Below are positions 3,216-39,300 of a stretch of DNA of 55,485 bases, one piece after another; the stretch's first letter is position 1, and the number at the start of each line of letters is the position of its first letter. The stretch comes from Chloromonas sp. AAM2 (lineage: Eukaryota; Chlorophyta; Chlorophyceae; Chlamydomonadales; Chlamydomonadaceae). Below the pieces are notes generated by a model. It did no database searches, had not been told where the DNA came from, and worked only from the letters and a program-made list of their open reading frames with translations. The stretch is taken from positions 1,380 through 56,864 of the forward strand of contig QAXH01005270.1 of assembly GCA_004335635.1 (NCBI GenBank). Reading direction: 5' to 3'. The translations under genes were made by a program, and so were the position numbers.

Positions 3216-3667
3216 CAAAGGTGCTCTTCGCCAGGCCGTGTCATCGTTTGCAACACACTGTCCACATTGCAATGTACTCCCCGTCACCCAGTTGTGTCTG
3301 GCCTGCTGCTTGCGTCAAGCAACGCTCGCTTGTAAGCTGTAACTGTACAGTGACGGGCCCGGATAAGGGTCAGCCCTATTATGGGTTGCTTGGCTTTTTC
3401 TCAGCCTACAAGCAAATGTTTTGGCTCTGTATATCGCTGTTGACTTCTTTCAATTTGCCGTTTTCGACTTAGATCCTTCACGTTGTAGGTTCCCTGGTAG
3501 TCGTACACACGCGTAGCAGCCTCGACCGTTGAACAAGAACTGGTTGAACTTGTAACCTCAATAAGCTTTCAGTGTTTCGTGCGTATACGGAATTGCTGCA
3601 AATCGACTGTATGCACACCACGATCCTGCACTGTAGGTTAACTCGGCATGTCGCCAGAGCCACACAG

Positions 3668-3930
3668 AAAGATGTTTGCCAGTTCTGGCACAGTTCCAGG
3701 ACTAGCAGTTTTTCAGATGTGATTTTCGCATATTCTCTAAATTTGCTAAATCTGGTAACCATTGACATGATTTTGAGCTATCTCCTGCAAATTGTATCAA
3801 TGTGTAAACAACTACGAGACATGACAACTTTTTTTTTGTTTGCGCCCTCAAAATCTCCCACTTTGGAACAAACCAAGCGGAAGCGTGAGACACACAAAAA
3901 TTGTCCCAGGACTGGCAATCTTCTTTTCTT
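3668..3930. mobile_element. Family A MITE-like element with terminal inverted repeats
   Basis: The left end (AAAGATGTTTGCCAGTTCTGG) at 3668 is mirrored by an inverted copy at 3895-3930 (TTGTCCCAGGACTGGCAATC). About 80 bases inside the right end match, in inverse orientation, the copy at 14148-14215. It carries no coding capacity and is about 263 bp. The same ends recur at 14.1, 14.6, 32.4, 32.9, 38.5, 38.6, 41.8 and 43.3 kb, so this is a non-autonomous inverted-repeat family. Confidence 0.7.
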
Positions 3931-4416
3931 GCACTGCCAGAAGGGTAGGAGCTGAACTCGACCACAGCTGGACAACGCGCTCAGAGAAGAAAATGAGAAT
4001 CATATGAGCGTCCGCAGTGCAGCTGATGAACACAGCCCCCCAATCTTGCGCTATTACAAGGGCCAAGCAGCAGCAGAAATGACACGCGGCCCATCTACTG
4101 CTTTGTCCAGCGAACAAGAGCTTCTGCTGCTCAACTACATCTGAAACATGCACCGCATTTAGTCGACTTGTCCAAGGGAGCATGTGCCTGCCAAGCTGGA
4201 CAAGTATAAGCAGTTTGGAAAAGCAGTTTGGAAAACCAATTTGCTCTGTCGCAGTCCAGTGGGTGCTCTGGGCGCCTTTTCCTGAGGGTACTTTAAACCC
4301 CACGAACCCTTTCAAAGGCTCGGTATATGTCGCAAACCAGGGAGGGTGCGGCCATTGTAGCCAGAAAAGGGCTACCAGGTTGCCGCTACCTGTCCGTTAC
4401 GTATAAGCAGAAGGAC

Positions 4417-5465
4417 TCATGACGTGCGCTGCAGTGGCACTGGTCGTGGCTTGTCTCTGGCCTGGCATCGACCGACGTGGTGGATGTTGGCAGACCCAAC
4501 TGCATCGTGGTGCATCACAACCTTGCAGTGGCTGCACTTCTCCAGCCTCTGGTTGCACGTGCGTAATTTCAGCAATTGCTGCGGCGGGTTGCTGGGCTGA
4601 GGTACAGCCGGTGCTGCACCCTTTCTCGTGCTAGCCGGGAGCCTTGGCACACCTGCTAGGAGCGCATAAGCGTCAATGCAGCGCGCACAGTATGTGCTTG
4701 TTTTATGCTCATCTGTTTCGATCGTCAGGACTCGGCAGTCCATGCGCCGCTTCAGCTGTTGCACTGGTGGCCCTCCCATCTGTCGGCTGATCGGGCCGCC
4801 CACCGTGCCATGCCAGTTGCCCCAGTAACAAACTGTATCTTGCCGCTGGCCGCCACAGTCTCGTGTGACGTGGTTGACGATTGCATCCAGCTCACGGTCA
4901 CGCTGAATGTTAACCCGCAGCCGCCTATGGCGATACCCACGTTTGCTGCTGGCTGGACACGTTTGTTGTGCCGGCCCGGCAGCTGAATGTGGTTTGTTCA
5001 GGGCGTCTCCAGTCCGCCATTCACGTGGGGGTTCGTGGTACTGATCCAGGATGCCGTTCCGTCCCAATGCCCATGCGACGTAACGGACGTATGCCATCAT
5101 ACGCCTGATAGACCACACCTGTGTGGCTCGCTGTGGTAGCGTAACAAGGGGGTGATGGACTCCCATTCCTTCGTGTTGACTTCCGTGCTGCGTTTGTGTG
5201 GCAGGTCCCACGGATCTGGTGCCTCAGTGTCAGGGCACAGTGTCACAGTGGTGTTCTTCTTCTGCCGTTCCGACCACGCTGCCTTTGCTCTGATGCCTGC
5301 TCGCTGCTTGTAGCCGCGTGTGGATATCTTGAGTTGCTCCCCGGACCACCCCCTTGTGGCAGTCACCACGAAGGTGGTGCCGGGATCAACCCGTGGGCAT
5401 GTGGGGCTTGTTGCAGACATGTGGTGCTCCTTGTACCTCCAAAGGCCTTGCACGCCGCATAACAC
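4417..5465 (-). pseudogene. Fanzor (eukaryotic TnpB-like RNA-guided nuclease), frameshifted RuvC region
   Basis: Two overlapping minus-strand frames together give an ordered RuvC nuclease of the Fanzor/TnpB superfamily. The upstream frame (5465-5097) has the RuvC-I motif CPRVDPGTTF with the Asp codon at 5385-5387, then an ISTRGYKQRAGI stretch typical after that motif. The downstream frame (5211-4417, 264 codons) has YVRYVAWALGRNGILDQYHE, a basic block YRHRRLRVNIQRDRELDAIV, VCYWGNWHG, then TIETDEHKTSTYCARC (the TnpB/Fanzor DE-x-x-TS-x-x-CxxC signature), CSHC and HHDAVGSANI, the RuvC-III Asp at 4504-4506. The two catalytic Asp are about 294 codons apart, as expected for the family. The frame change falls between 5211 and about 5110, consistent with a one-base indel or less likely a tiny intron. 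No intact N-terminal half was found; in the same frame as neither ORF, a weak piece (EVVFTTRPMISRVMRR) lies at about 5478-5430. I infer a decayed or split mobile-element gene. Fanzors of this kind are reported from algal genomes, usually carried by transposons. Confidence 0.8.
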
Positions 5466-5599
5466 GGGAAATCATTGGTCTTGTGGTGAATACCACTTCA
5501 TGCAAGCAAGTGATAGGGTTAGGCCAGTACTCCGCGCCGAGACCACCGTTTTACGCCGCGTAAGAAGCACTAGAAGCGCCCATACATCCTAGAGGCCTG

Positions 5600-7537
5600 T
5601 TGGAACTTGATTTGCTGCATTTGGTGCGGTATGCGCAGCGCAGTGGGCTGGGAAGCGTGATAGGGGTAGGTTGAGACCTCCTCCCGGTCGGAAAGGCCAC
5701 ATATCCGCGCCAAGATCAGGCGCCCTCCGCCCAGAGGCCCATAAGACACATATGGACTCAACGCAAAAGTCCCGGCCCGCTGACTCGTCAACTTTATCTA
5801 GCAATGTAACCGACGTGGAGGTGGGGCTGGGTCGCAGTTTTATATAGCAGCCTCCGGAAGGTCTCATGTCAAAGAACCCTGCTTCAATCTGTAGAAAGAG
5901 CAGCAACACCCCTGCCGATAGACACTTGCTGCTAGATTTCGACAGGCAGTTGCTGCGGAGTACGCGCACAATGAGTACACGACCATGGAGCAACCGTAGA
6001 GGCGGGCAATCGGGTGACGTCAAATTATGATGTCAGCAGCCGCGACGACCCAGAGATCGACCCAGTCTTACTTGCTTTTAGCGGTGTGTGCGGCGGTTAT
6101 GTTTGTATTTAGTCTCGGTGGGTGTCGTGTGTGTTTTGTTGCATGATGGGGGGTCAGCAAGGTGTGGCCTGTGGTTTTGATCAGCTTTGGGTCAGCTTGG
6201 GGGTCAGCTTGGGGGCGGACATAGAAAAGCTTGTGCGCGTGCGCATGAATGTTTCTGGCCAAAGCTGCATGTTTACTTGCTGCGACGTGTTTGGCCGCTG
6301 CATGCGACTGGCCGCCATCCTGCTGCGGCACGCGCGCCAGCCAGGCCTGATGAACACCTCGGACCATGCTTCAGCGTCTACGCTGCGTGTCAAAGCCAGA
6401 CTGCTGCACGCCGCGAAGGCATACACGTCGGACTGCGTCTGAGCGGCAGGCACGCACGATCGTGCCGTGGGCGCAAAGCTCGCGCAAGCTCATGGTGCGA
6501 GAATGCTAGTATTTCGTAATGGTTGCAATGCAGTAAAGGAGAAGCACCATATCGCGCCGAAGCACGATACAGAATTGTCAATCCTTGGAAGGGCTGTGTT
6601 TCGGCGTCCGGGACGCCCGAGAAAGACGCCCGTCTCATGTGCGTTCAACAAGTAGCTAGGCGATCGATAGCCCTGGTCTTGCCCATGCGGATGCGGCGTG
6701 CCTCGCCATGTGTGAATGCGCGTGCATAGCGCATCGGCAAAGAAACACACCTGCAACGAAAAGCAACTAGTATCAGCTTTGGCAGAAACGGGATTTCTGG
6801 CTCTAGGTGCTAACGGGCGTCGCCTCTGACACCCCTTACTTCGTAGGGTGTAGGGTCTTCCGTAAACAGCCGCCATTGGAAGTGGACGAACGTCCTCTTT
6901 CCTGCGTTTGAGAAGTGAACGCATGTCCTCTTTCTGCGTTTTTGTTTGGATGTCCAACCTGACCATTACACCATTACATGAAAATCCACAGTCCAAAGGT
7001 GAAACGCTGCCTCAGACTGTTTTCCACTGTGCAAGGGAGACGTGTGGGGCCGGAAAATGCTGGTGGCCTACTATTGAGGTAGCTGTACATGTACAGAACT
7101 GTGGCGACTCAGTCTAGAGCCCTGCCACCAAACGGATTATGATTTCATAGGATGATTGACGCTGAACACAGTGGATCAGCCGTGCCTACCGCGCTTAACA
7201 AAGATTCCTCGAACTTCTGAGGACTAATGTCAATATCTAAGCAGTCAAACCGTATTGTCATTTCATCATCATTACATAGCTTCTCATGGTTCAACCCACG
7301 GTACCGTCCTGTGACCCATACCCAACCTGTGTTGCCTTGGTCTGGTGAGGTCTTCGACCTTGCCACGTGCTGTGTTACATTGAAGTGCACACAGAGACAT
7401 GCATGGTTTGTTGTGAACCCATGTTCTGATGGCGTGGCTCTGAGATTCAGACGAATAAGCAAAGTGCCGTCTTTTGTAGGCATTGTATGGTCACAGAGCG
7501 AATCTGTTTTGGCCTAGCTGGCATTCGGTACCTCTTG
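5600..7537. other. Upstream flank of the Fanzor copy; no supportable gene
   Basis: If a Fanzor N-terminal half exists it should lie on the minus strand here. The frames at 5589-6023 and 6490-6996 show no motif I can assign. The rest is short overlapping frames without splice logic. Confidence 0.35.
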
Positions 7538-8225: not shown

Positions 8226-8265
<40 letters not shown>

Positions 8266-8359
8266 AGTCTTTCGCCCCTATACCCAAGTCCGAAAAGCGA
8301 TTTGCACGTCAGCACATCTACGAGCCTCCACCAGAGTTTCCTCTGGCTCACCCTGCTCA
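8145..8359 (-). rRNA. Fragment of nuclear large-subunit (25S/28S) rRNA
   Basis: Read on the minus strand, the segment contains the highly conserved domain II of LSU rRNA. It runs from GCCTGAGCAGGGTGAGCCAG through GAGGAAACTCTGGTGGAGGC, GACGTGCAAATCG, ACTTGGGTATAGGGGCGAAA, AATCGAACCATCTAGTAGC, TGGTTCCCTCCGAAGTTTCC and AGGATAGCTGGAGC to AGCGAATGATTAGAGG. The TCCCTCCGAAGTTTCC stretch is the eukaryotic nuclear form rather than a plastid or bacterial one. Similarity stops near 8360 on the 5' side and about 8145 on the 3' side. It is therefore a roughly 215 bp detached piece, not a functional rRNA gene. Small differences from the conserved consensus, such as CCCCCAGG for CCCTCAGG, fit a pseudogene fragment. 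Confidence 0.9.
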
Positions 8360-8843
8360 GGCTTGGTCAGTGGTTTGAGAATGGGCTTCAAAAGATCATC
8401 TCACCACCCTGCCTTGGCTTGGCTGCAACGCCTGCGTTCGGCACACGCTTGGGCCACACTATAGCTTTTGGAATTAATCCCCAGCAAAGGCATACAAGCA
8501 TCGTGTTGTAGACGACCTCCATCAGCATGCACCACTCCTTCGTCACATGGTTCTCAGACAAGGTGCAACACGTCATAAATAGGGATCGTAAAGAAACAGG
8601 CAATAGGAACACTATGGACTGGGCAGCTGTACGGTAGCCGTGACAACCACAGTCAAAAACATAGAGATGCAGGGGTTGAGCCTGCAAACGATGAAATGAC
8701 CTGCAAAAGAGCACCTCATGGCACCCTTGCAAGGAGGGCCTTAGTTGCAAGACTAATTGTGCCTTTTTACCTCTTTTTATCTGGCCAACGAGATCATCAG
8801 CATTGTCCATTAAAAACAAAAAGCAAACCTTGTACCTTCAGTA

Positions 8844-21999: not shown

Positions 22000-24434
22000 C
22001 ACGTCCCGCAGTTTCAGGTTTTGTACCAGCATCAAATAGCCAGTGTCGCACGGTCGCCTGCGCACGCAGGCGCCACCTTATGACAAGGTTAGTTTCTCAA
22101 AAGCGTTTCAGACAGTCTGGTTCACACGTCCAAGGTAAGAGTGCGTATGTAATGACTTACCGCACCTTCGCGTACCCCACAAGGAATCAGGATGCTCTAG
22201 CAAGCAACCCAGCTTTGAATGTATCCACTAGTGGAAGCAAACTGGTCCAAGCCCCGACACGTCCGTGGATCTTGCGAGGTCAGTTGAATGTGGTTATGTC
22301 GTGGGTTCGGAGGGAAAGCGACGGGGGTCCGGAAGGCACTTTTGCTTTTCCCTCGAGAAGGTCCGAAGAGGGAGGTGCGGAAATTACCTATCTGCACCTC
22401 CGAAGTTTTCTCATCACGGCGCTCCATGGGGTCGCGAGCCACGGCGGCCGTAACACGGCAAGAGCGGAGGCTCCGTCTCGTATGATGATGGCACAAAGGT
22501 CGACACCTGGAGTGCACACTTATAACTGCTTTGTCATGTTTTTGATGTCTCAGCAGCTGCACAACGCCCGATTCATGGCCATCATGCAAAGATGAACACA
22601 GCCGATGGACCGGCGCAACAATACTAAGTTCAAGAATTGTTTCTTTACCTTGAAAGCTCATGTTTGCTGCATCTGATCACCGCTTGACTTTTGTTGTGTA
22701 AGCTGGCATGATGGTGGTGGATGGACATAGAGTGAACATGAACATGGATGGACATTGAACATTGAACAACGTTGGTTTAAATTGTATGCCATCAGTTGTG
22801 AGCACTTGTGGCGCCGGCACATGCAATGTTGAGTGGGGCTTCAAGGCGCCTATCCACAAAACCGCAGCGAAAGTCCTGTGTTGAAATAAACCAGAGTATG
22901 TGGCTATGGAGAGTGCAACTAGAGGATGCTCACATGGTTGACAGACCCGACCCTTAGGTGTGTCGCAGTCCCCTTCACGTGTAGGTTGGACGGGTTGGAA
23001 TCCCTCCCCTCTTGTGATTGCCCTTACAGCATAGCATCATATCGGAAGGGACTGTCACTGTAGCCTTCAGCTTGTCTCATGTCGATTACATGGAAACGAT
23101 ACGGAGCAGTAAATATGTGTCAAGATGGTTTTCGCCGATGAGAATCAAATGATCTGCTATCAGCGTGTTGCTACGTGCGCCCAACAAGCAAACTAACAAA
23201 CTCGGCTCACGCCTTGGTTTGTAAATGCAATTGGTCGCGAAAAAGCCATGAGCTACCAGTGACATTGTTTATGCGAGAGCACACGCCACTCAACAGTCAC
23301 AGTCAATCACAGAAGGGGAGGAGACCAACCCGCCCCCCTAGCATGAAGGGGATTATGATACCCTAAGATCGTAGCAGACACACTACGGGTTGCTATCCTG
23401 TCCGCAAACCCCGGTCAAACAAGTCCATCACTTGTACACTCGCACTTGCTAAACTCAAAAACTCAACGCATGACAACCTCTGTGTACAGATGTCAATCAT
23501 GAAGCGTCATGCCTTGAGAAAGAAAGCCTGCCTGCCGGTAGTAGTGTACCTTGTGTGAATGAATACGAGGGCACAACAGCAAGCCTCAGATCACCCAACA
23601 CCTAACTCTGTGATACACGTGTATGCACTAGCCGCACAACGCCAGCCATCACATACACAATTGCTTGGGCTAATACATGCCTTGAGCCGTACAGTGGTTG
23701 TTGATACAAGCGATAGCTGCAACCTGGGGCCTACGAAAATACTGTTGATCTCTTGCAACATTCCCACCCGGCATGCAAGTTCGGTATGCCAGTTTGCAAG
23801 CAGGCATGACAAACACACATCTTGTATTTGCGGCCAGCCAGCATCAAGTCGACTCGTGTTCTGGAATGCATTCCTTACACCCAGCCATACAACTCCTGCC
23901 TATAGAGTTGAGTGCACAAAGATTGCCAGGTGGCATGACCACCAAGAACAGAGCTGCTGGCAGTGCTGCGACATTGCGCTAGCCACCATTGGCTTCAAGT
24001 CCCATGCAAGGCACATAACGAGCACACCAGCACCAAGACAGTGGCCCGTTTACTTCTGACTGCCCCTTTGCTTCTGACTGACAGCCCCCTAAGAGCCAAC
24101 TGTTCGCAGTACAAACAAAACGCACAGCAAGCCTGTGCTGCGCTCGGCTAAGCCCATGGTGCTGTTTGACCTATGATGGAAGGCGTGATCACTACAGCAC
24201 CACCGGAGGACCCACATGCACAACCTAGGCATCCGGTAGACCGCATAACTGCAGGACGATGAGCTACCAGCCAAATCTAATGTGCGCATGCATGGACTGC
24301 CGACATGCCTGCCTTAGTGGTGCTTGCCCTTCCAAGTGCAAGAAAGCGGGCTTACCCTGCCATGCACTGATTTAGGCATGGCGAAGGTGCCCCCCCGTGT
24401 GTGCCTTCTCCATGTGTTTGGGCACAGCTTTCTC
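22000..24434. repeat. Intergenic region with family D inverted repeats (22943-23022 and 23305-23375)
   Basis: No gene is supported in the 2.4 kb between the SGNH start and the Pumilio stop. The segment at 22943-23022, read inversely, contains AGAGGGGAGGGATTCCAACC, CGTCCAACC and GTGAAGGGGA. It recurs nearly identically at 37578-37643 and more loosely in direct orientation at 23305-23375. The pair at 22.9 and 23.3 kb faces inward like ends of a roughly 450 bp element. A small hairpin (GGAGGTGC / GCACCTCC) lies at about 22372-22402. Confidence 0.55.
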
Positions 24435-32421: not shown

Positions 32422-32947
32422 AAAAAGGTGTTTGCCAGTTCTGGGACAATTCCTTTGTGTTTCCCAGTCCGTGTTTGAGTGCAAGTGCTATACAGTGACA
32501 GTCCCTATTTCCGAACGGCCCAAGATCCGATCAGTGTTCAATGCTGCGTTTGTAAGGGGACTCTCACCCCATGACGGCTCTCTTAACCGCCAGCATTGTC
32601 CTCTATTGCAGCGTCCATTGCCGCACCCTGGGCAATGGCCTCCAGCAATTCTACATACTGCAGGTATAAGTACTAGAGACCTTTTGAAAGCATAGAAGAG
32701 GCCACCGCACGAGCAACCTGACTTGGGACAAAGACCAGCATCATGGGGCAATCGGTTTTGCCAAAGCGCCACAAACACCACTTAACGTGTGAATAGCGTA
32801 ATGGGATTTGGTCGGATAAAGGGACAGTCACTGTACTGACAACTGCACGCACCGTGAACCACATTCAGGACAGGCGGCGCCACATTGCGACTGGTTTTAG
32901 TACAGAACACAAGAATTGTCCCAGAACTGGCAAACATCTTTGTTTTT
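32422..32947. mobile_element. Family A element (about 525 bp) containing a nested family B element (32493-32833)
   Basis: The outer ends are a pair of inverted repeats about 40 bp long: TTTGCCAGTTCTGGGACAAT at 32431 and its inverse at 32914-32935, each extended into matching flanks. Inside, CAGTGACAGTCCCTATTTCC starts at 32493 next to TA, and its inverse GGACAGTCACTG ends at 32833 next to TA. That makes a 341 bp family B element inserted in, or captured by, family A. Neither encodes a transposase. Confidence 0.75.
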
Positions 32948-36332: not shown

Positions 36333-39300
36333 ATGCAGGCCGTTCGTCACAAGCACTCAATCGGTGCGAATCCAATCCTGACAAAAACAACGACACCTGC
36401 CATCCGTCCCCTTCCGTCATGTTTGCGATGCAGCGGTGTACAGCGTCGTGTGGGCAGGGCAAATGGCATCATCCTCGCAGCATCTGCCCAGCAATCTGCC
36501 CCTGCCTCCACTCGCGCACCGAGGCTCATCCAGCATAAGTCTGAGGTGGGGAAGCTGCCGCATCAACGCCCACTATCATGTTGTGCGTCAACTGTGCCAA
36601 ATGCATCGCGGTTTTGTCGCCCACCTTGTCGAGGTTAAGGGGTTTGGATCGCGATCTCTAACGCTTGACCTTTGCCTCATCTACAGGCATTCTGGTTCTA
36701 CAGATTTCTTTCCATTGTGTATGACCATATAGTCAACCCAGGTGCGCATCATGAGCTTCATGGTAAAGTGGGGCAGGAGTCTTAGCTGCGTGAGTGGGGG
36801 CGAGAAAATGGTGGCATGCACATGTCCGCAAGCGCTGCAGCCAGCTTTAATCTTGCCCGTGGAAATCCCGGCAAGCAAACCATTCGAGGTGCCCACGCTC
36901 ACTGGCTTGGTTGGCTGCACCAACACATGCATGCGTGTGACTCTGCCATGCTCAGGCCACTGGACTGAGGACATGCGTGAGGATGCCTTGAAGCCTGCAC
37001 AACTCGACCGACCAGACCTTAAGGCAAGACAGTGCTATGGCATGCTGTTGTCACCGATTTGGGTAAACTTTTCTCTGTATTGCTGCACGCATGAAGGAAG
37101 CAGGTCACACAGCCTGCACAGTCCACCCCTTGCTTTCTAGCCATCAGCAAGTCACAGATACGATTGCAGTGCGCATATCAGCCTTGCAGATCACACAAAC
37201 CGTCCCACCGCGAGGGCACCGGCAAACAGATCCAGTAATCCAGGCAATGGGAGATGGAGGATTCAGAACAGCAGGCAACTGGGCACGTGAACAGGTCCTC
37301 AGCATGTCTGAGGAGGCCAGAGCCAGTGCAGCGCATCTTGGCAAGTGTCATCTGAGGTGTCGCCTGAGTTGCATGTCTTGTGGCGTGCAGGTTGTGGATG
37401 TAGGTGGTGGCACCGGCTTTTGCACCCTGGGCATCGTCAAGACGGTCGACCCGACAAACATCACGCTTATTGATCAGTGAGTGTTGCCTGTGGATGTGGA
37501 CACGCATGATCAGCACAGACATCTTGTTTTGCACCATTATCTGTTGTTTACAAAGAATCCGTTAGGCCATCTTCCTCACAAGAGGGGAGGGATTCCAACC
37601 CGTCCAACCTACATGTGAAGGGGATTGCGACACACCAGGATAGTAATGGTGGTGGCCAACCTCTTGAGGTGCTATCCTCCCATTAGTCTGTGGTCGCGCT
37701 GGTATGGTCTCCCAGAGTCTGAGGCCACTTATCATAATTTTTGAGGCAATGCAACCACATGGGCATTTTCAACCACCACCATGTGACTGCATACACTTTC
37801 CAAGCCAAGCAGGTGTACTTGCTGTGCACTTGCACTTGCACAGATCGCCACACCAGCTGGCCAAGGCACGGCAGAAGCCAGCGCTGAAGAACATCAGCAT
37901 CATGGAGGCAAGTGCACCTGCCGTGGGGCGCAGGATAGGGCGGTGAGCACTCTTGCTGGTGATGAGTTGCTTGTCACTTACCAGTTTGTAGCATGGCTAC
38001 ATCTGCTGGGAACATTGTGAGATGCACTGATCCGAATCTGTAGCCTGACCTAATCAAACATGAACATCTTCCCTAATTCACTAAAGGCGCCCATCACTAT
38101 TCACACGCACAACATGCTGAAGGACTGGATTCAGAGATCTACAATTGCAATGCCATTGCCACCACCACGCCTGCCACACTGCGTTTCGCGCCTTCAAATA
38201 CTGTCCTTGATTGCACGCTCACTAGGCAAACCACACATAGCCGCACATGCATGGTCTAGTTGCATGTGTTCACCATGTCAGCGGCACCTGTCTCCTGTGC
38301 TGCTCTCAGGGCGATGCCGAGGACCTTCCCTTCCCCACTGACAGCTTTGACCGCTACGTGTCCGCGGGCTCCATTGAGTACTGGCCTGAGCCCCAGCGCG
38401 GCATCAAGGAGGCGTACAGGGTCGTCAAGGAGGGGGGCATAGCGTGTGTCATTGGGCCCGTGCACCCCACCTTTTGGCTATCCAGGTGTGTTGCAGGAAT
38501 GCGTTGGTTGGTTCGGCCGTTGGTCGTAAAAGAAGTTTGCCAGTTCTTGGACAATTGTTATGTGTAATTTTCAGTTGTGATGCGTTTGTTTGAGTGCACA
38601 CAGTGGAACTGGAATCTCGATCTCGCTGGAATTGTCTCAGAACTGGCAAACTGTGTTTTTGGGTGGCAGTGTGGAGCTTTCATTTCACGGATGATTGGCG
38701 CTGTTCGTGGCAGTGCGTGCAAACAGCTATGAACAGCCACCATCGTACAGCGTTTTAAGACGCTGCTGCATTTGATGACCAAACAGTCCAGATCAATTGC
38801 CAACACTTGCTTCCCGTCGTCCTGCTCCCATCCTGTGTCACACTCATGCTTGTGTGGCATGATGATGCTGGTCTGGCTTGACAGGTTCTTCGCTGACGTG
38901 TGGATGTTGTTCCCTCGCGAGGACGAGTACATTGACTGGATGACCAAGGCTGGGTTCGTTGACGTCAAGATGACGCGGATAGGCCCCTCCTGGTACAGGG
39001 GCGTGCGCAGGCATGGACTCATTATGGGCTGCAGCGTCACTGGGGTCAAGCCCAAGGTACGTGGGAGAGAGCATGTGCAGCTGGTGTAATCTTGTTGTGC
39101 TGCAGTCCTTCAGGCACGGTTGTAGTCATTTGGACTTGTTCTGGCCATGGCAAGGCTTGGCACTGAGCTGCACTGCGATTGGCTGGCGACTCGCTGGGCA
39201 CCGACTTTGCCATGGGCAAGCTGAGCAGGGGCACGCTGAGCACTGCGTGGATGATAACAAAATGTGGTGTAGTCCTTTTGGCTGGTGACTCGCTGGGCAA

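Follow-up and report, generated by a model that had tools for sequence, protein, structure and literature searches.

Does the stretch 4417..5465 of this Chloromonas sp. AAM2 contig hold a copy of a gene for a Fanzor, the RNA-guided nuclease of eukaryotic transposons, and, if so, what carried it there? To address these questions we analysed the window, that is, the whole stretch of 55,485 nt from which the coordinates below are taken, and searched the 74.4 Mb assembly (2324 contigs). The reading that we favor, at a probability of roughly 0.8, is that the locus is a dead, 5'-truncated Helitron2-type rolling-circle element that carried a Fanzor gene and was spread by a Rep/helicase acting in trans.

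The coding remnant and its decay

All the Fanzor catalytic and zinc-finger motifs were found on the minus strand, in order and at the coordinates first noted. The coding remnant (4417..5432, minus strand) begins shortly ahead of RuvC-I, runs to the stop codon in two frames and is without its N-terminal half. DPG with the RuvC-I Asp lies at 5379..5387 (Asp codon 5387-5385). The sequence DEHKTSTYC (4713-4687) includes a Glu codon (4708..4710, read 4710-4708) placed six residues ahead of the first zinc-finger Cys, which is the alternative RuvC-II Glu of Fanzors. The two zinc-finger pairs are CARC (4678..4689) and CSHC (4525..4536), and HHDAVG (4512-4495) contains the RuvC-III Asp (codon 4504..4506), HD replacing the published RD. 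All these motifs are read from the minus strand, the DPG segment within an ORF at 5465-5097 and the remaining motifs within an ORF at 5211-4417 in the other frame. The ORF list and an alignment with the related copy on contig C1714 bear out the initial annotation in this respect: the motifs lie on a single strand with one frame change, and ≈ 294 codons separate the RuvC-I and RuvC-III Asp codons.

Over 5415-4195 the window copy and the C1714 element are 86% identical in DNA sequence (BLAST). The frame is shifted by an 8-nt length difference between them at ~5151..5158 (minus strand; from the alignment gap table, the position being obtained by arithmetic). The seven other gaps in the coding part are all multiples of three, and two of them lie at the ragged 5' edge. 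The Fanzor N-terminal WED/REC half is absent from the window copy, its place being taken by an unrelated repeat, R1; a possible N-terminal remnant was seen by eye in C1714, in another frame. The C1714 relative is also broken, with two TGA codons and a Lys at the position of the catalytic Glu. The dN/dS ratio of the pair, 0.73 over 337 codons, was considered as a sign of constraint and set aside as too weak for proof. A structure model was uninformative (mean pLDDT 32.2).

Might the two frames instead be spliced exons of a living host gene? The CRe Fanzor1 genes of Chlamydomonas are described with 5 to 10 exons (PMC3627910), and 932/996 aligned coding positions are identical in the window copy and C1714. 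Yet the frame change coincides with the 8-nt difference, which is far below usual intron length, the N-terminal half has been replaced by an unrelated repeat, and the sister copy carries two TGA codons and has lost the catalytic Glu, at a dN/dS of 0.73. We find a host gene barely conceivable. The window copy is a dead copy in ordinary decay. Of the earlier proposal of a decayed or frameshifted copy, the decay stands; the frameshift is one part of the damage, since the N-terminal half is gone too.

Relationship to Fanzors

The check first suggested, a direct HMM comparison of the ORF with Fanzor/TnpB-type profiles, did not bear out the assignment by itself: PF07282 (Pfam) gave E 0.0074 and 16.9 bits, below its cut-off of 26.3, and NF040570 (NCBIfam) gave E 0.07 and 12.4 bits, below its cut-off of 100. 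Searching the PDB with the window ORF returned no match, and a five-sequence family profile found no Fanzor there. Within the genome, 15 matches to the window ORF (including itself) were obtained at E ≤ 0.001. One of these is a protein copy 87% identical to the C-terminal ORF and 13 are weaker matches, which confirms that the run of motifs exceeds chance.

The link to known Fanzors is provided by a paralogue in the same genome, L039 (C1181), which matches the solved Fanzor1 structures of Guillardia (E 5.5e-22), Parasitella (9.9e-11) and Spizellomyces (1.2e-9). An hhalign comparison placed the window family in register with L039 over the zinc-finger region and the final Asp with E 0.0031, at a probability of only 10%. 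A DPG together with the shifted Glu is given as a mark of Fanzors in the sections of PMC10711439 available to us. The window copy has both, with DPG at RuvC-I and the Glu preceding the zinc finger by six residues; C1714 has Lys at that Glu position. The published Fanzor pattern, D-X(125,275)-[TS][TS]-XX-C4 zinc finger-X(5,50)-RD (PMC3627910, as far as accessible), fits in all its spacings (233 and 6 residues in C1714), and RD reads HD in both copies. At the level of sequence, the L039 paralogue and the DPG/shifted-Glu signature support the assignment of the window copy as a decayed Fanzor. The link is indirect, because the ORF alone scores below cut-off and has no PDB match.

Those scores, the family profile that retrieved no Fanzor from the PDB and the 10% hhalign probability are what one would see if the ORF encoded a zinc-ribbon protein of other origin, or were a fortuitous frame in which TnpB-like motifs happen to occur. 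Against this, the catalytic and zinc positions are ordered, the Glu has the Fanzor-specific spacing, the paralogues are conserved, and the hhalign match of E 0.0031 is in register with a protein that itself matches Guillardia Fanzor1 at 5.5e-22. We regard a non-Fanzor origin as extremely improbable and retain a decayed Fanzor.

The window also holds host sequence. A plant-type dapB exon matched TIGR02130 with E 3.1e-73 and 246 bits, below the curated cut-off of 294.55, and its top PDB matches were plant-type and chloroplastic reductases. An isolated 121-nt fragment of eukaryotic LSU rRNA lies at 8248-8368 on the minus strand (RF02543, 112.5 bits, covering 822-950 of the model), with no rRNA gene near it in the window. 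The natural reading of the exon and the rRNA fragment is a green-lineage nuclear genome. A tandem repeat of ≈ 2 repeats of a 33-nt unit is found at 6879-6941, and Rfam models run over 3500-7500 gave chance-level matches only. The claim of a decayed Fanzor in an algal chromosome thus holds as regards the signature (complete except for HD), the related copies and the eukaryotic neighbors, the direct profiles being its weak side. The expectation of related intact copies elsewhere was borne out in part: relatives exist in the genome, but none found in the window family is intact, and the nearest is broken.

Several other Fanzor sequences were noted. L040 (C499), of another Fanzor lineage, has an open frame of 600 residues with DTG replacing DPG and a weak zinc-domain match. 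The Fanzor coding stretch that corresponds to 5063-5223 of the window occurs twice on C1746 (L033), close together and in opposite orientations. A search of viral contigs for relatives (query L036) found none.

Boundaries of the element

The interval first given for the copy, 4417..5465, required correction at both ends. Its outermost part, from 5465 to ~5433, is repeat R1, so that the copy starts at ~5432 (by eye), and beyond 4417 the element continues to a sharp end at 4200. The whole remaining Fanzor-carrying element is thus 4200..5432 on the minus strand; its 5' junction is approximate, having been placed by eye against the R1 copies, and its 3' end is common to other copies. R1, on the 5' side (5433..5826, minus strand), is unrelated to the element and has copies at L030 and L032 (BLAST, with the junction by eye). 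On the other side lies R2 (3930..4199, minus strand), the repeat that hosts the inserted 3' end; positions 4187-3930 were assigned by BLAST and 4199-4188 by eye.

The 3' flank of the window copy, CCAGCTTGGCAG, is the start of R2. In L024 and L027, R2 is uninterrupted and reads GGCTGCTT followed by CCAGCTCGG (by eye). At the point of insertion these loci read GGCTGCTT followed by CCAGCTCGGCAG, a junction that resembles an empty site, with GCTT replacing GTTT. The left part of R2 was looked for upstream of the window copy and not found, and no target duplication was seen at this copy, whose 5' end is lost. Since the left part of R2 was not found upstream, where R1 lies instead, and no duplication was seen, the 5' side has undergone rearrangement or capture, and the gene has lost its N-terminal half.

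A family with Helitron2-type ends

The 3' region of one copy gave at least 43 DNA matches in the genome, most of them with the same last base and with variable 5' cuts. The terminus, ending in CTGCTTGTACTTGT, corresponds to window position 4200. The terminal 19-mer was found at 57 genome places with ≤ 2 mismatches, compared with 2 for the reversed control. At the 5' end, which is preserved in other copies, the element begins with TCGCAGCCCCGCTGCG and forms a hairpin. The 5' end pattern GTTTTCGCAGCCCNGCTGCG was found at 14 places with ≤ 2 mismatches (control, 0); this pattern includes GTTT and is hence no independent proof of GTTT. GTTT precedes the same 5' end in L047, L048, L067 and L072, four copies that had been retrieved by way of the 3' end. 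Many of the junction statements made here and below rest on reading by eye.

The two ends are related to each other. The family sequence GGGCTGCGA, located 36 nt before the 3' end and upstream of the 3' hairpin, is the reverse complement of the first nine letters of the 5' end, TCGCAGCCC. The window copy has GGACTGCGA at this asymmetric terminal inverted repeat (4249..4257, minus strand; by eye). The subterminal hairpin region that follows (4208..4243, minus strand) contains a 13-nt tandem duplication which is absent from the other 21 aligned copies. These are features of Helitron2 elements: in other copies of the family, a 5' terminal hairpin that starts with T holds the 5' inverted repeat; the 3' inverted repeat comes before the 3' hairpin, its 36 nt to the end being slightly beyond the ~ 20-30 of Bao and Jurka; and insertion is after a T-rich tetranucleotide, with duplications chiefly in 5'-truncated copies. 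Short elements with both ends, L088 (after CTTT), L089 and L092 (after GTTT), had no duplication by eye, and none was seen in any copy observed with an intact 5' end. The initial annotation had not recognized this Helitron2-type vehicle.

Helitron_like_N was detected at two places in the genome, and a piece of a PIF1 helicase adjoins one of them. The family ends, which begin with TCGCAGCCC and finish with CTTGTACTTGT, were not found near the Rep/helicase genes in the sequence read there, some of which consists of N. The 5' end, GTTT followed by TCGCAGCCCCGCTGCG, leads into differing interiors in L080-L085 and L087, so this Helitron end seems to be shared by several families of elements in addition to the Fanzor-carrying one.

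An ordinary terminal-inverted-repeat transposon was also considered and rejected, because the 3' end was matched more than once on five contigs and none of these showed such an arrangement. C1714, C2057 and C1815 each hold one copy split in two, the two copies on C1704 point the same way, and the two on C1765 are arranged opposite to inverted repeats.

Dispersed copies anchored at their 3' ends could also result from target-primed reverse transcription, that is, from a LINE or SINE with a structured 3' tail in which the Fanzor gene was a passenger. Such elements, too, are marked by 5' truncation, a constant 3' end and target duplications that vary in length, and the genome contains reverse transcriptases (41 RVT_1 matches). 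This had been our first reading of the solo 3' ends, and it was ruled out for them by the 5' ends and the short, duplication-free elements. The conserved 5' hairpin end, which comes with no duplication in the copies that have it, likewise argues against reverse transcription, as does its match to the inverted repeat close to the other terminus. Further, the 3' end occurs in 1 of 36 RVT_1 contigs (C192), and there the reverse transcriptase is ≈ 3 kb away, beyond the terminus, so the two do not form one element. A LINE/SINE mechanism is therefore very unlikely, and a Helitron2-type element is preferred in what follows.

The target site

Target duplications were scored in 57 copies whose terminus could be read (37 of a first set and 20 added later). 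L025, L059 and L073 were left out because their 3' terminus is altered, and C1144, C1889, C2275, L088 and L092 are outside the set. In 15 of the 57 copies, GTTT together with at least five letters matching the 3' flank was present upstream. When the flanks were swapped among copies while the upstream part of each was kept fixed, 200 shuffles gave a mean of 1.01 and a maximum of 4. The runner-up among all 256 tetranucleotides scored 2 copies in the same test, and a first version of the test with 37 copies had given 7 against a mean of 0.42. At least seven letters matched in nine copies (L069, L049, L101, L068, L053, L094, L097, L070 and L102), and the duplications, found in part of the 5'-truncated copies, reach up to 11 matched letters. 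In the flank, base 1 was C or T in 54/57 copies and base 4 was G in 50/57. From the excess of GTTT upstream and these base preferences we obtain GTTT^YNNG as the target. GTTT with a repeat is absent from 42 of the 57 copies, which age may explain.

The 3' region as a candidate guide-RNA scaffold

It had been suggested that a guide RNA might be encoded at about 4000-4450. A conserved element end is indeed present within this interval: the region from the stop codon to the terminus (4200..4416, minus strand), which is common to the dispersed copies, is the Helitron 3' end and a candidate omega-RNA scaffold. A family consensus of this region, written by hand, folded better than 200 of 200 shuffles (z = -3.26), with its final letters paired to an ACAAGG farther upstream. 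In a 22-copy alignment, only one of the 19 predicted pairs had a double change. Identity between the window copy and C1714 in this region is 162/202, below that of the coding part. Both observations count against the RNA step. An open frame at 4182-4406 on the other strand was considered as a protein gene and rejected because of frame-breaking indels among the copies.

An omega-RNA transcribed from the 3' end is a candidate with which the layout is compatible: GTTT beside the full, uninterrupted target occurs at empty sites only, and the guide would come from the right flank. In the window copy that guide would be the flank directly past the 3' terminus (4184..4199, minus strand), which starts with CCAG and fits YNNG.

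Comparison with known systems and other repeats

CRe-1, CRe-2 and CRe-3 of Chlamydomonas reinhardtii are described as Fanzor1-carrying, non-autonomous Helitron2 elements (Bao and Jurka 2013, PMC3627910). According to the accessible parts of that description, they resemble the window family in several respects: the host is a green alga, the Fanzor gene sits in a Helitron2-type element, copies with intact 3' ends are often truncated at the 5' end and deleted internally, variable-length duplications follow a T-rich tetranucleotide (none if the 5' end is intact), and there are a 5' hairpin and asymmetric inverted repeats. The CRe target is TTTT-like by its description, whereas that of the window family is GTTT^YNNG. 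The window family copies are older and far fewer of them have duplications (15/57 versus 10-70%), and no intact gene was found among them, unlike in CRe.

Spu-1 of Spizellomyces, as presented in the available text of Saito et al. (2023, PMC10432273), is a Fanzor1 element with ORF-less ghost loci. Both Spu-1 and the window family have many ORF-less relatives in which the 3' end is kept beside variable flanks. The Spu-1 omega-RNA extends 14-15 nt into the flank, and its TAM is CATA, with CA conserved ahead of the element. Spu-1 ends in terminal inverted repeats and makes TA duplications, whereas the window family has Helitron ends; the omega-RNA of Spu-1 was shown by small-RNA sequencing, whereas that of the window family is a candidate proposed from sequence. 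A Fanzor-encoding repeat of Auxenochlorella, also a green alga, is the most abundant repeat there and is called uncharacterized in the part of PMC12633428 at hand; we liken it to the window family by description only.

Two other repeat families were observed. Family B, an abundant 3'-anchored repeat, occurs in the window at 22957-23022 (plus strand) and 37576-37678 (minus strand); on C1482, C244 and C1416 it also follows Fanzor-like ORFs. The best 40 of its 1011 genome candidates were scored; in ten copies compared, a sharp end in TTGTGA was common to all and no flank motif was seen. Family C occurs at 32491-32625 (minus strand) and 32810-32839 (plus strand) and follows Fanzor-like C-termini at L042-L044; here the best 40 of 103 genome candidates were scored. 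Membership of family C in the Helitrons was rejected because of mariner-like inverted repeats, its ends in L126 and L133 being TACAGTGACTGTCCC and GGGACTGTCACTGTA (by eye). L081 and L080 hold family B and C ends beside a Helitron 5' end, the ground on which both families had been considered as Helitron members.

A model for spread and its implications

In the model, a Helitron Rep/helicase acting in trans would nick at GTTT^Y and start copying the element at the 3' terminus. Copying that stopped early would leave 5'-truncated copies, the one-ended transposition put forward by Bao and Jurka. An intact Fanzor may in addition have bound an RNA from the 3' end, with the 3' flank as guide; the complex might then have recognized GTTT with the uninterrupted target and cut empty alleles, favoring spread of the element. 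This RNA-guided step, taken alone, is possible, though we would put the odds somewhat against it. In the accessible portions of Saito et al., Fanzor cutting is suggested to aid the spread of single-strand transposons such as Helitrons, and a parallel is drawn between Helitron-borne Fanzors and peel-and-paste elements (PMC10432273). We met no experimental test of a Helitron-borne Fanzor in the portions of the literature on Fanzors and Helitrons at our disposal.

A further-reaching version, which we consider unlikely, is that GTTT is both the Helitron target and the Fanzor motif and that each 3' end with the fold preserved, including those of the dozens of copies lacking an ORF, is or once was a guide-RNA gene in its own right, with its own flank as guide, the family moving by RNA-guided homing. 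If this were true, one intact Fanzor could have used many guides in trans, cutting empty alleles of many insertions and so driving the whole family.

The family bears on why eukaryotic transposons retain an RNA-guided nuclease. A Fanzor-carrying Helitron is of a known kind; in this family the landing site is clear, which makes the possible guide RNA testable. For the family one would expect GTTT as the TAM, the right flanks as guides and the empty alleles as the place of the targets. The interest thus lies in the family rather than in the window copy, and it is the target motif that makes the homing idea testable.
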